DNA of 35,201 bases from Candidatus Hydrogenedentota bacterium (GTDB taxonomy: Bacteria; UBA8481; J006): NCBI GenBank assembly GCA_003697085.1, contig RFFU01000092.1, positions 1-35,201 of the forward strand, given 5' to 3'. Position 1 is the stretch's first letter. The number at the start of each line of letters is the position of its first letter. The notes beneath the pieces are model-generated. The model saw nothing but the letters and a program-made list of their open reading frames with translations, had not been told where the DNA came from and did not search any database. Below are positions 6,482 through 32,559 of the stretch, in pieces. A program made the translations under genes and the position numbers.

Positions 6482-6490
6482 AAAAGAGAC

Positions 6491-6517
6491 CACGGAAGAC
6501 ACGGAGGGCACGGAAGG
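6491..6517 (+). repeat. Three tandem 9-bp units, CACGGA(A/G)G(A/G)
   Basis: CACGGAAGA, CACGGAGGG and CACGGAAGG follow each other without gaps directly after the wecE stop. Two further copies, CACGGAAGG at 6685-6693 and CACGGAACA at 6702-6710, lie in the same spacer. Function is unknown. Confidence 0.8.
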
Positions 6518-6559: not shown

Positions 6560-6786
6560 AAGGTGTAGTATTCGTTCGTCGTTCACCGTTTATGGTTTGC
6601 GGGTTCAAAGGCCCCGTTCAAGGTCGTAAAATGAAAAACGAAGAATGGCGAACGAAAAACAGTAAACGAAAAACCCACCGAACACACGGAAGGGAGGAAA
6701 CCACGGAACATCTGTAGTACCCGAAAAAGGGAAATGGGAAAGGGCAAGAGGAAGAAAAAGGGGAGAAAAAAAAAGGCAAAAATTTC

Positions 6787-6814
6787 TTGACCGTTTCGAA
6801 ACCACGTGTAAAAC
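6787..6814 (+). promoter_or_regulatory. Candidate sigma-70-type promoter of the str leader
   Basis: TTGACC at 6787-6792 matches five of six -35 bases. After 16 bases comes TAAAAC (6809-6814), four of six for the -10. Transcription would begin near 6820, about 300 bases ahead of rpsL. The -10 is imperfect and overlaps the left arm of the first hairpin (ACTCCG/CGGAGT), so the call is tentative. A second TTGACC at 7008-7013 has no matching -10. Confidence 0.4.
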
Positions 6815-7006
6815 TCCGCGCTCTTGTTGGCGAACGGAGTCTTCCGTCCGCTCCGGAAAGGGGCGGAGGAGACGAAATGGAGAAGCGACAGAAGGGTGTC
6901 CCGATCGGGAGGCTCGTCTTCCTCGCGAGTGTGAAGGAGACGGGCTACCCGTGCGTGGTGCCGGTTCCGAGCGGGGAATCGGGAAGTCGCGCGGAAGCCC
7001 TTTTTT
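6813..7006 (+). ncRNA. Structured str-operon leader or small RNA, ending in an intrinsic terminator
   Basis: Five consecutive hairpins can be drawn by eye. P1 is 6813-6840 (ACTCCG/CGGAGT plus CGC/GCG). P2 is 6839-6873 (GTCTTC/GGAGAC, a 2-base bulge, then 8 bp closing a GGAAA loop at 6855-6859). P3 is 6899-6910 (palindrome TCCCGATCGGGA). P4 is 6916-6941 (GTCTTC/GGAGAC again). P5 is the terminator stem. P2 and P4 use identical helix halves, so GGAGACGA (6868-6875) can instead pair with TCGTCTTC (6914-6921), including one G-U pair. No known riboswitch or housekeeping RNA signature was recognised. It could be a cis-acting attenuator of rpsL-rpsG-fusA or an independent RNA. The structure is a hand fold; regulation is inference. 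Confidence 0.5.
6942..7006 (+). terminator. Intrinsic terminator (attenuator) 118 bases before rpsL
   Basis: GGGCT (6942-6946) pairs with AGCCC (6996-7000). CCGTGCG (6949-6955) pairs with CGCGCGG (6988-6994), separated from the first helix by a small internal loop. A nested hairpin CCGGTTCC/GGAATCGG (6961-6968 and 6975-6982) fills the loop. Six T residues follow at 7001-7006. It sits inside the spacer ahead of rpsL, so it would cut off transcripts before the ribosomal genes unless read through. Confidence 0.65.
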
Positions 7007-7124
7007 ATTGACCGCGGCCCGGCCGGCAGAGCTTGTTGGCGGGGGAAAAATGAAAACGGAAGAGGCGATGGGAAGTGTCAAGAGACGGTAAGGAAGGAAG
7101 TCAGAGGAAGAAGGAGGAAGAGAA

Positions 7125-7502
7125 TTGCCGACGGTAAACCAGTTGGTGAAGCAACGGCGGAAGAAGATCAAGGCGAAGTCTTCGGCTCCGGCGTTAAAGG
7201 GGTGTCCCCAGCGGCGGGGAGTTTGCACTCGGGTATACACGGTGACCCCGAAGAAGCCGAATTCCGCGTTGAGGAAGGTTGCACGTGTGCGTTTGACTTC
7301 GGGGATCGAGGTTACGGCGTACATCCCCGGAGCGGGGCACAATCTTCAGGAGCACTCGGTGGTTCTCGTTCGTGGCGGTCGTGTCAAGGACCTTCCGGGA
7401 GTGAAGTATCACATCGTTCGCGGAAGCCTGGACACGATGGGCGTCGAAAAGCGCGGCCGGTCCCGTTCGAAGTACGGGGCGAAGCGGCCGAAGAAGGGGT
7501 GA
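7125..7502 (+). CDS. rpsL: 30S ribosomal protein S12
   Basis: S12 sits at the decoding centre of the small subunit and affects accuracy and streptomycin response. The 125-residue protein has the conserved block [20 protein letters not shown] and the [15 protein letters not shown] and [12 protein letters not shown] motifs, with both lysines of the streptomycin-related loops present. It starts at TTG 7125, giving [10 protein letters not shown] as in the family, with AAGGAGG at 7111-7117. It is the first gene of the ribosomal run, behind the structured leader. rpoB and rpoC, its common upstream neighbours, are absent. rpsG follows after 6 bases. Confidence 0.98.
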
Positions 7503-10196: not shown

Positions 10197-10214
10197 GGTA
10201 TCCCGCGGGATACC
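10197..10214. promoter_or_regulatory. Perfect 18-bp palindrome just upstream of tuf
   Basis: GGTATCCCGCGGGATACC is a perfect palindrome of two 9-bp halves with no spacer, ending 6 bases before GGGAGG (10221-10226), the tuf ribosome binding site. As DNA it could be a dimeric regulator's operator. As RNA only the outer bases could form a small hairpin. No copy was found elsewhere in the window by eye. Confidence 0.55.
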
Positions 10215-10236
10215 GGCTATGGGAGGTAGGTAAGTC

Positions 10237-28029: not shown

Positions 28030-28891
28030 GTGGGAAGTGATTGCGCGGGCGCGGGAACGCTTTCCCGTCCGCGGAGGATCTCGCGTTATCGGAATCGGCG
28101 ATGATGCGGCCGTTGTCGGAGAAAGGCTTCTTTCCACGGAACTCTTCGTTGAAGGAGTTCATTTCGACCGCGGGTGGATGAATTGGGATACGATCGGACG
28201 CCGGTGCACCGAGATTGTGCTTTCCGATATCGCCGCGATGGGGGGGACGGTCGACGGCTTGCTCGTCGGTTTCAGCGGCACTCTGGGCTCGGATGAAATC
28301 AATCTGCTCCTGGACGGGATCTCTTCCGCAGAAGTACCCGTCCTGGGAGGTGATACCGTGGGGGGTGGGGGAGAATGCGGGGTGGTTTTGGCAATGACGG
28401 TCTTGGGAAACGCGAAACGGCCGGTTCTGAGAAAGGGAGCCCAGGCCGGAGACGTTGTCTATGTATCGGGAGCACTCGGGGGTGTCCTGGCGGGTCAGAA
28501 ACTTCTGGAAAGGGGAAGACGGGATTCCCCTCTGGTCGAACGTTTTTTGGCGCCTCGGGCACGCCTCGATTTGGCGTCTTTCTGGGGGCGGTCCGCCTCG
28601 GCCATGATCGATATCTCGGACGGTCTCTCCTCGGAACTCTGGCATATCGCCGGCGACTCCCGTGTACGAATCGAGATCGAAAGCGTGCGGATACCGATCT
28701 TCGAGGGGGTCGAGACGGTTTTCGAGAACCCGATCGAGGCCGCGCTTTCCTCGGGAGAAGAACTGGAACTGCTTGCCACGGCTCCGGTCCCCCTGCTCGA
28801 GGGGAAGGAGATCGGTTGCGTGAAGGAAGGGGAGGGGGTCTTTCTCGATGGAACGCTGTTGCGCCGAAGCGGATTTACCCATCGGTGGTGA
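28022..28891 (+). CDS. thiL: Thiamine-monophosphate kinase
   Basis: ThiL phosphorylates thiamine monophosphate to thiamine diphosphate. The product has the AIR-synthase-like fold: VIGIGDDAAVV (Mg-binding Asp pair), VEGVHFDRGWMNWDTIGRRC, LSDIAAMGG, VPVLGGDTVGG, DVVYVSGALGG and MIDISDGLSSELWHI. From ATG 28022 it has 289 residues, at the short end for the family, with a compact C-terminus. The frame is open back to GTG 27965 inside alr. The Shine-Dalgarno is weak. The stop overlaps the GTG codons ahead of tsaE. Confidence 0.92.
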   Translation: MDEWEVIARARERFPVRGGSRVIGIGDDAAVVGERLLSTELFVEGVHFDRGWMNWDTIGRRCTEIVLSDIAAMGGTVDGLLVGFSGTLGSDEINLLLDGISSAEVPVLGGDTVGGGGECGVVLAMTVLGNAKRPVLRKGAQAGDVVYVSGALGGVLAGQKLLERGRRDSPLVERFLAPRARLDLASFWGRSASAMIDISDGLSSELWHIAGDSRVRIEIESVRIPIFEGVETVFENPIEAALSSGEELELLATAPVPLLEGKEIGCVKEGEGVFLDGTLLRRSGFTHRW

Positions 28892-28896
28892 ACTTG

Positions 28897-29373
28897 ATGG
28901 ACTGGTGCGCGCCGGCAGGCGGCCTGGAGGAGCGGCTTCGTTCTCCGGAAGAAACGCGGAATTGGGGAGAGCGATTTGGTGCATCGTTGAAGGGGGGAGA
29001 ATTGATTCTGCTTTGCGGGGAACTCGGTTCGGGAAAGACCGTTCTTGTGAAAGGAATCGCAAAAGGGTTGGGAGTTACCGATCCGGTGACGTCTCCCACG
29101 TTCCTTCTCCAAAAGATTTATGAGGGGCGCCTTCCGCTCTTGCACATCGATCTCTATCGTTTGGAAGCGGGCGAGATGTGGGAATTGGAGATCGACGAGT
29201 GGCGCGCCAGGGGGGCTGTTGTCTGTGTGGAGTGGGGGAACCGTTTGAGTAATCCCGCGGAGCCGGTTTTTTGGATCGATCTGGAGATCCTTCCGGAATG
29301 TCCGGAAGAGCGCCGACTGAGATTCCGGGGATCGGTGCAGGGAGGTGAGCGGGAGGAAGAGACGAGGACGTGA
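28897..29373 (+). CDS. tsaE: tRNA t6A biosynthesis ATPase TsaE
   Basis: TsaE is the P-loop ATPase that works with TsaB and TsaD to make N6-threonylcarbamoyladenosine at position 37 of ANN-decoding tRNAs. The 158-residue product has the P-loop GELGSGKTVL (about residues 41-50), SPTFLLQKIYEG, HIDLYRLEAGE and the late VEWGNRL motif. ATG 28897 follows GGTGGTGA. GTG 28885 and 28888, overlapping the thiL stop, are alternatives. The end overlaps tsaB by four bases. Confidence 0.93.
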   Translation: MDWCAPAGGLEERLRSPEETRNWGERFGASLKGGELILLCGELGSGKTVLVKGIAKGLGVTDPVTSPTFLLQKIYEGRLPLLHIDLYRLEAGEMWELEIDEWRARGAVVCVEWGNRLSNPAEPVFWIDLEILPECPEERRLRFRGSVQGGEREEETRT

Positions 29374-31008: not shown

Positions 31009-32559
31009 ATGAAGAAACTACCGATCGGGATACAGGATTTCCGGGAGTTGATCGACGGTGGTTACGTCTATGTGGATAAGACCGAATACCTCTATCGTCT
31101 GATTTCCGAGGGAAAGGTCTATTTCCTTTCACGACCGCGGCGGTTCGGGAAGTCGCTTCTGGTCTCAACGCTGGAGCAGATATTCAGAGGGAACCGGGGA
31201 CTTTTCGAAGGTCTGTATATCCACGACAAGATCGAGTGGCGGAAACATCCGGTGATCAAGTTGGACATGACGCAGTTGGCGTACGAGTCACCGGAAGGGT
31301 TGAAGCAGGCGCTGATGGACCATGTACGTTCGGTAGGCGAGGCATACGGTCTGGAGATATCTGGACGTTCGCCGAAGGACATCTTTGCCGCGCTCATCAA
31401 GGAATTGTCACGGACAGGGAAGGTTGCGTTGTTGATAGACGAATACGACAAACCGATCATCGGAGCGTTGACGAAGACGGAGGAATGCGCGGCGTATCGG
31501 GAGATATTGAAGGACTTCTACGGCGTGATCAAGGGGCTGGACGCGTATTTGAAGTTCGTGTTTTTGACGGGCGTGAGCAAGTTTTCGCGGACGAGTATCT
31601 TTTCGGATCTGAACAACCTCCGAGACATCACGATGGCCGAGGATTACAACGAGATATGCGGGTATCGCGAGGAGGACCTGGAGCGCTATTTTGACGGCTA
31701 TTTCGAACGTTTTGCGGAGAAGCACGGTGTCGGGAAGGAGGCGATTCTCGAACGCTTCCGTACCTGGTACAACGGTTACAGCTGGAACGGAGGAGAGCGG
31801 CTCTACAATCCCTTCTCGACGTTGAATGCTTTGGCCGACAGGCAGTTCCGCAACTACTGGTTCGAGACGGGGACGCCGACGTTTCTGATCAATCTGATGC
31901 GGGAGAAGAGATACGACCTGACGAGGTTGGAGGATCTGCTTTTGATCGAATCGGGATTCAGCAAATTCGAGATCGAAGACATCGCGGTGGAGGCGCTGCT
32001 TTTCCAGACGGGGTATTTGACGATCCAAGAAGTCGTGGACAAGGGGGCGGAACGCTATTACCGCTTGGGTTATCCCAATTACGAAGTCGAGAGATCGTTG
32101 TTGGATCACCTGCTTGTGGGATACACGGAGACGCCGGGGATTCGCGACGGCCGGTTGTTGCTGCAACTCCGTGAGGCTTTGGAGTCCGGAAATCTCGAGG
32201 CGTTCTTTGCCGGTGTGGAGTCGTTCTTTGCAGGAATTCCGTATGCTATTTTCATCGCCCAGGAGTGGTATTTTGCCAGTATCGTTTACGCCGTGTTGGC
32301 GATCCTGGGACTGGAGGGCCGGTTCGAGATGTTGACGAACCGGGGGCGGTTGGACTGTGCGGTGGAGTTGGGAGAGCGGGTGTACATCTTCGGGTTCAAG
32401 TTGAATCAGGCTCCGGAAAAGGCTCTGGAGCAGATCAAGCAGAGAGGATACGCGGAGAAGTACCGCGCGAGCGGGAAGAGGATCACGCTCGTGGGAGTCG
32501 CCTTCGACGCGGAGAAGCGCAATGTCGGCGGATGGAAGGTGGAAGAAGAGAGAGCGTAG
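31009..32559 (+). CDS. AAA-ATPase-like / PDDEXK_9 domain protein with altered nuclease motif
   Basis: The 516-residue product matches, by memory, the AAA-ATPase_like (PF09820) plus PDDEXK_9 (PF08011) architecture, often multi-copy in bacterial genomes and of unknown role. The N-terminus is KKLPIGIQDFRELIDGGYVY with VDKTEYLYRLI. The Walker-like motif SRPRRFGKSLLVSTL lies at about 42-56 and the Walker B-like VALLIDEYDKPI near 142-153. The C-terminal nuclease-like block has GRLD (Asp449) and ALEQIKQRGYAEKY. The usual EFK triad residue is changed: the sequence reads YIFGFKL, with Gly462 (codon GGG, 32392-32394) where Glu is expected. The ATPase part looks intact, nuclease activity is doubtful. 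It stands alone between spacers. The start has only a weak binding site. Confidence 0.88.
   Translation: MKKLPIGIQDFRELIDGGYVYVDKTEYLYRLISEGKVYFLSRPRRFGKSLLVSTLEQIFRGNRGLFEGLYIHDKIEWRKHPVIKLDMTQLAYESPEGLKQALMDHVRSVGEAYGLEISGRSPKDIFAALIKELSRTGKVALLIDEYDKPIIGALTKTEECAAYREILKDFYGVIKGLDAYLKFVFLTGVSKFSRTSIFSDLNNLRDITMAEDYNEICGYREEDLERYFDGYFERFAEKHGVGKEAILERFRTWYNGYSWNGGERLYNPFSTLNALADRQFRNYWFETGTPTFLINLMREKRYDLTRLEDLLLIESGFSKFEIEDIAVEALLFQTGYLTIQEVVDKGAERYYRLGYPNYEVERSLLDHLLVGYTETPGIRDGRLLLQLREALESGNLEAFFAGVESFFAGIPYAIFIAQEWYFASIVYAVLAILGLEGRFEMLTNRGRLDCAVELGERVYIFGFKLNQAPEKALEQIKQRGYAEKYRASGKRITLVGVAFDAEKRNVGGWKVEEERA

Follow-up and report, generated by a model that had tools for sequence, protein, structure and literature searches.

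Introduction

What governs the transcription of rpsL, the gene for ribosomal protein uS12, in Candidatus Hydrogenedentota bacterium? The question is raised by the window analysed here, i.e., the whole stretch of 35,201 nucleotides (nt) of contig RFFU01000092.1 (GenBank assembly GCA_003697085.1), in which a strongly folded leader ending in an intrinsic terminator stands ahead of rpsL. A first-pass annotation, made from the sequence alone, had described this leader as a switchable attenuator or a standalone small RNA. The preferred reading, with a probability of about 0.42, is that the element, as leader of a str-S10-spc-alpha ribosomal cluster, acts as a transcription attenuator, with translation of a short open reading frame (ORF) within the leader in control, by the full mechanism set out below. 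Taking this reading together with one in which a protein or ligand acts on the same RNA, it is probable that transcription of rpsL is attenuated in some way.

A reading frame that passes through a terminator

The features of the leader are collected in Table 1. The terminator was described by the first-pass annotation as a hairpin with six T residues, 118 nt before rpsL, and both the coordinates and the folding bear this out. Its hairpin, P5, is the strongest found beside any of the 66 runs of five or more T on both strands of the window. The same bases are crossed by the frame of the leader ORF, which continues through the hairpin and the U tract, the latter being itself coding (codons 42-44 are CTT TTT TAT), to a TGA stop codon that begins three bases past the U tract. 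Thus, a transcript ended by the terminator would lack the stop codon of the ORF.

The ORF has the coding signal of a real gene. Its coding log-odds are +11.0, compared with -11.0 +/- 6.3 in composition-matched open frames, of which 0/4000 scored as high; against randomisation in which base pairs were kept, the signal has P = 3e-4, a value which, like that for the hairpin below, is indicative, since the coding model was trained solely on the genes of this window and the ORF was picked after the sequence had been seen. Against a frame-averaged background of the window, the ORF scores 12.2, which is mid-range for real gene segments (mean 10.3). The G+C content by codon position is 0.64/0.48/0.75 in the ORF and 0.59/0.49/0.74 in rpsL. 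The hairpin, in turn, exceeds what is obtained when the same peptide is recoded synonymously: an equally strong hairpin arose in 0.25% of recodings (an indicative P = 0.0025). Since encoding the peptide does not demand so strong a hairpin, and the frame also carries a coding signal, both signals seem to share the same bases.

Table 1. Features of the rpsL leader and the first gene of the cluster, in window coordinates
Feature	Coordinates	Strand	Description	Basis
Likely promoter	6787..6814	+	TTGACC (6787-6792), 16-nt spacer, TAAAAC (6809-6814)	read from sequence
Hairpin P1	6813..6840	+	would conflict with the promoter as placed	fold
Hairpin P2	6842..6871 (about)	+	8-base-pair (bp) GC-rich inner stem and outer pairs; 3' arm holds the Shine-Dalgarno sequence of the ORF	
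Shine-Dalgarno sequence	6865..6871	+	GGAGGAG, 5 nt upstream of ATG 6877	sequence
Leader ORF	6877..7011	+	44 codons and stop (135 bp), MEKRQKGVPIGRLVFLASVKETGYPCVVPVPSGESGSRAEALFY	open reading frame, coding signal
Hairpin P3	6894..6915	+	holds GCUC (6912-6915), so the terminator foot stays free	fold
Extended P4	6911..6946	+	candidate antiterminator, 6911-6921 with 6936-6946	minimum-energy fold of 6813-7006
Hairpin P4	6916..6941	+	helix GTCTTC/GGAGAC	fold
Intrinsic terminator (P5)	6942..7006	+	59-nt hairpin 6942-7000 (-36.8 kcal/mol), T6 at 7001-7006	folding z = -3.7
rpsL (uS12)	7125..7502	+	TTG start; first cluster gene	TIGR00981 and Pfam

Folding of the leader

The whole region 6813-7006 has a folding energy of -97.1 kcal/mol, which corresponds to z = -3.7 relative to dinucleotide shuffles; of 20 coding segments from the window taken for comparison, 19 gave z between -1.4 and +1.4 and one gave -3.1. 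The five hairpins reported earlier before rpsL are present and fold, P1 to P5, followed by the six T residues, and P3 and P4 taken together have z = -3.1. The inner stem of P2 is paired with a probability of 0.94-0.99 at every transcript length tested. The identical helix GTCTTC/GGAGAC that had been assigned to P2 and P4 is there in both places; in P2, two of its bases also belong to the 3' arm of P1, and the full helix forms only partly. Shuffled sequences contain a 6-bp hairpin helix in duplicate in 1.8% of cases, which makes the repetition unusual, but weak evidence by itself. Rfam gave no match to the leader at curated or permissive thresholds, in keeping with the earlier statement that it belongs to no recognised RNA family: no ribosomal-protein leader or riboswitch reached its curated score in the window, the one match there being a tRNA elsewhere, and the best sub-threshold match inside the leader had E = 0.88.

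Ahead of these hairpins, an A tract precedes the TTGACC of the likely promoter, and a transcript start is predicted at about 6821. The 5' arm of P1 (6813-6818) is possibly untranscribed, because it overlaps the likely -10 element and lies before this start. There are also short direct repeats that bracket the leader, about 210-220 nt apart: 6783-6793 and 7004-7014 (TTTCTTGACCG/TTTATTGACCG), and, as a second pair, 6823-6832 and 7032-7041 (CTTGTTGGCG in both places). The two pairs look as if the promoter region had been partly duplicated past the terminator.

Two mutually exclusive structures

If the leader switches, which pairing would compete with the terminator? The pairing proposed earlier, 6868-6875 with 6914-6921, comprises eight pairs on paper, one of them G-U; it is predicted with a probability of 0.00-0.02 at each transcript length tested except 6780-7125, where the value is 0.25. 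On these values it was rejected as the switch; the GC-rich inner stem of P2 persists and keeps the pairing improbable. Extended P4, in which P3 is lost, instead captures the 5' foot of the terminator (GGGCU, 6942-6946). The constrained energies of the two states are -63.3 kcal/mol (terminator) and -62.2 kcal/mol (extended P4), i.e., about 1 kcal/mol apart, and for a transcript extended to 7000, pairing of the terminator foot has a probability of 0.7-0.84. The idea of a switchable attenuator fits a promoter-like start, a structured leader, a very strong terminator and two exclusive folds of nearly equal energy, but the exclusive pairing differs from the one named, and the leader ORF spanning the terminator had been overlooked.

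The effect of a translating ribosome on these folds was modelled by assuming a ribosome edge and folding only the RNA beyond it. With the ribosome at codons 1-2, the terminator foot forms with a probability of 0.71-0.95; at codons 3-7, the antiterminator is formed with 0.84-0.98 (terminator off); at codons 8-17, the terminator is formed with 0.97-0.99 (on); and from codon 19 onward the terminator foot is directly blocked. Such a response of the fold to the position of the ribosome, as modelled, is how a leader-ORF attenuator works.

Proposed mechanism

The coordinates, the coding signal, the hairpin strength, the fold energies and the effect of ribosome position were computed; the promoter, actual translation, termination and the signal are inferred, and could act together as follows. 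RNA polymerase would start near 6821 and then transcribe P2 to P5. By default, in the absence of translation, P3, P4 and P5 would form and most transcripts would stop near 7007, ahead of the ORF stop codon. The leader ORF would initiate at 6877, its Shine-Dalgarno sequence being held within P2. A ribosome close behind the polymerase would cover the 5' half of P5, so that the terminator could not form; one that paused at codons 3-7 would open P3, upon which extended P4 would take the terminator foot and read-through would follow; with a ribosome at codons 8-17, the terminator would stay intact. The output would depend on what controls the opening and closing of P2, be it a ribosomal protein, free 30S or how fast translation proceeds.

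It is suggested, tentatively, that translation of the leader ORF sets transcription of str, and that the status of translation is relayed in this way to uS12, uS7, EF-G and EF-Tu, and probably to the downstream ribosomal cluster. If true, the translation machinery would have its own synthesis under direct feedback from translation.

Comparison with other rpsL upstream regions

Among the compared genomes there was one other member of the phylum, G001. Upstream of its rpsL there are a promoter-like site with the same arrangement (L113:1928-1955; A tract, TTGACA, 16 nt, TAAAGT), a folded leader and, about 190 nt before rpsL, a hairpin resembling a terminator (L113:2060-2112, z = -6.6) with UUUUGUU after it. 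Part of the G001 leader (L113 2188-2322) is an assembly gap written as N, and alignment of the window leader with this partly N leader was not above shuffles (P = 0.11). The gap adjoins tandem GGGATTCGGATTTA-like repeats at L113 2139-2187, upstream of rpsL, which are probably the cause of the break in the assembly. A pattern CGA-n-GAAG...CUUC-UCG, present in both leaders and in 0/80 others, was recognised post hoc and is not claimed.

In a survey of rpsL upstream regions, 26/101 had a terminator-like hairpin, and in five of the 101, the window included, the hairpin was crossed by an ORF with a Shine-Dalgarno sequence; the four besides the window seem to be incidental cases. Searched as DNA, the leader had no homologue beyond itself, the lone other match with E < 0.001 being a 31-base match of chance length.

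Weighing the explanations

Several points weigh against control by leader-ORF translation. The main weakness is that the evidence for the ORF comes from a single genome: no convincing homologue of its protein was found in about 290 genomes searched (the best other match, E = 0.008, covers 28 residues in an unrelated genome), and in G001, whose leader is partly N, no ORF led by a Shine-Dalgarno sequence spans the hairpin. The Shine-Dalgarno sequence is unpaired with a probability of 0.02-0.21 at all transcript lengths tested, i.e., 79-98% paired, and since it is predicted to be mostly paired, translation of the ORF may be weak. The promoter is absent from the listing of a consensus scanner, and its -10 element is poor. 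The ribosome-masking model assumes a value for the ribosome footprint and leaves kinetics out of account. Finally, the terminator could simply be the point where transcription of the upstream gene stops.

The strongest competitor, although an unlikely one, is an attenuator without a functional ORF, in which the choice between extended P4 and the terminator is decided by the binding of uS7, uS12, another product of the cluster or another ligand to P2-P4. The near-equal energies of the two folds would suit such a device, as would G001, with its promoter-like site and terminator-like hairpin and no such ORF, and there is a precedent in L10(L12)4, which acts on the rplJL leader of Bacillus subtilis (PMC10931766). 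This explanation leaves the coding signal and the Shine-Dalgarno sequence unaccounted for, however, and none of the Rfam ribosomal-protein leaders matches. Mimicry of 16S ribosomal RNA (rRNA), tested in both leaders against the 16S rRNA of G001, as no 16S was found in G000, did not exceed shuffles in either.

Less probable again is that P5 is a plain terminator, for transcription of the upstream aminotransferase gene or for a small independent gene, with rpsL having its own promoter within 7007-7124. That the upstream gene lies on the same strand, that a pattern scan found no forward terminator from that gene up to 6942, and that TTGACC occurs again at 7008 are in its favour. Yet the scan found no promoter-like site in 7007-7124, the U tract lies about 520 nt beyond the upstream gene, and a promoter-like site stands ahead of the leader, as it also does in G001; for a gene that makes a peptide, moreover, a transcript ended before its stop codon would be odd.

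It is very doubtful that the ORF is the first gene of the str operon and encodes a true small protein that functions in the cell, the hairpin being incidental: its coding signal is as strong as in real genes, but no homologue was found and the hairpin with its U6 goes far beyond what the codons require. A standalone regulatory RNA of about 186 nt, the other suggestion of the first-pass annotation, would fit the promoter-like start and the strong terminator, but is the least credible explanation, given that a coding-like ORF fills two thirds of it, that it directly precedes rpsL, and that the corresponding position in G001 is also occupied by a promoter-like site and a terminator-like hairpin.

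Relation to known leaders

Control by leader-ORF translation, the preferred reading, has a precedent in the pyrBI leader (pyrL) of Escherichia coli, in which a U-rich tract senses uridine triphosphate. A terminator placed within the gene of a leader peptide is thus an arrangement that is already established. The window leader differs in having no U-rich pause tract before the terminator (there is no T run longer than two in 6821-7000), in preceding rpsL, rpsG, fusA and tuf rather than pyrimidine genes, in holding its Shine-Dalgarno sequence in a hairpin, and in having an additional antiterminator fold. What the two share is the layout: the pyrBI terminator sits within a 135-bp leader peptide gene (PMC4824070), and tight coupling, with a ribosome following closely, prevents its hairpin (PMC5021804), just as here a leader ORF with a ribosome-binding site (6877-7011) spans the terminator (6942-7006). 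The equal length of 135 bp is regarded as a coincidence. The amino-acid attenuators of the trp and his type are different, as the ORF here has no run of codons for a single amino acid and ends after the terminator.

Premature terminators before rpsL are already known, so that the layout here, in which the terminator lies within the leader ORF, is a variant and not a new class. They are the rpsL-leader predictions of Merino and Yanofsky, which, in the sections of Naville and Gautheret (2010) drawn on here, are given as diverse in sequence, with none shared across phyla (PMC2965389). The window leader resembles them in having, directly before rpsL, a premature intrinsic terminator, downstream of the putative promoter, and a competing antiterminator, namely extended P4 as predicted against the terminator foot. 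It differs in sequence and structure, and those sections describe no leader ORF through the terminator (PMC2965389). In the literature, no description of this layout was found for terminators preceding rpsL. Premature terminators of rpsL occur in many phyla with no common RNA structure; if such leaders sense the translation of a short ORF instead of a protein at a fixed RNA site, an absence of structural conservation would be expected.

Three further systems can be compared. In the SAR11 rpsL motif, too, a structured RNA precedes rpsL where a fused str-S10-spc cluster begins; unlike the window leader, it is a three-stem junction known from Pelagibacter and marine metagenomes only (PMC2704228), and it is reported to fall outside the terminator criteria of Naville and Gautheret (PMC2965389). 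Control by uS7 in E. coli concerns the same str operon but acts on translation, at the rpsL-rpsG junction, and not on transcription before rpsL (PMC10931766). The rplJL attenuator of B. subtilis also controls transcription of a ribosomal-protein operon, but its leader senses a protein. To our knowledge, no leader ORF crosses its terminator.

The gene cluster and other observations

After rpsL follow rpsG, fusA, tuf, rpsJ and rplC and, further on, rpsD and rpoA: the downstream genes are a fused str-S10-spc-alpha ribosomal cluster. The upstream neighbour is a wecE-like aminotransferase gene on the same strand, not rpoC. In the gap between this gene and the leader there is a purine-rich repeat, CCACGGAAGACACGGAGGGCACGGAA, in two degenerate copies (6490-6515 and 6675-6700) that are 77% alike. 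Within the cluster, the fusA-tuf gap holds a palindrome, GGTATCCCGCGGGATACC, at about 10198-10216, possibly a second regulatory hairpin. Matches to fusA (EF-G) in three other genomes contain in-frame stops: TGA in G115:C12 and G252:C35, and TAG in G179:C34. The TGA in two of the three suggests stop-codon reassignment.

Elsewhere in the window, in the ORF at 28375-29370, which overlaps another ORF, the TsaE domain is confined to residues 189-295: either the protein has a long N-terminal extension or the start was set too early. On the 3' side of the ribosomal cluster, 31009-32556 is predicted to encode an AAA-ATPase with a C-terminal PD-(D/E)XK nuclease domain (PF09820 and PF08011).
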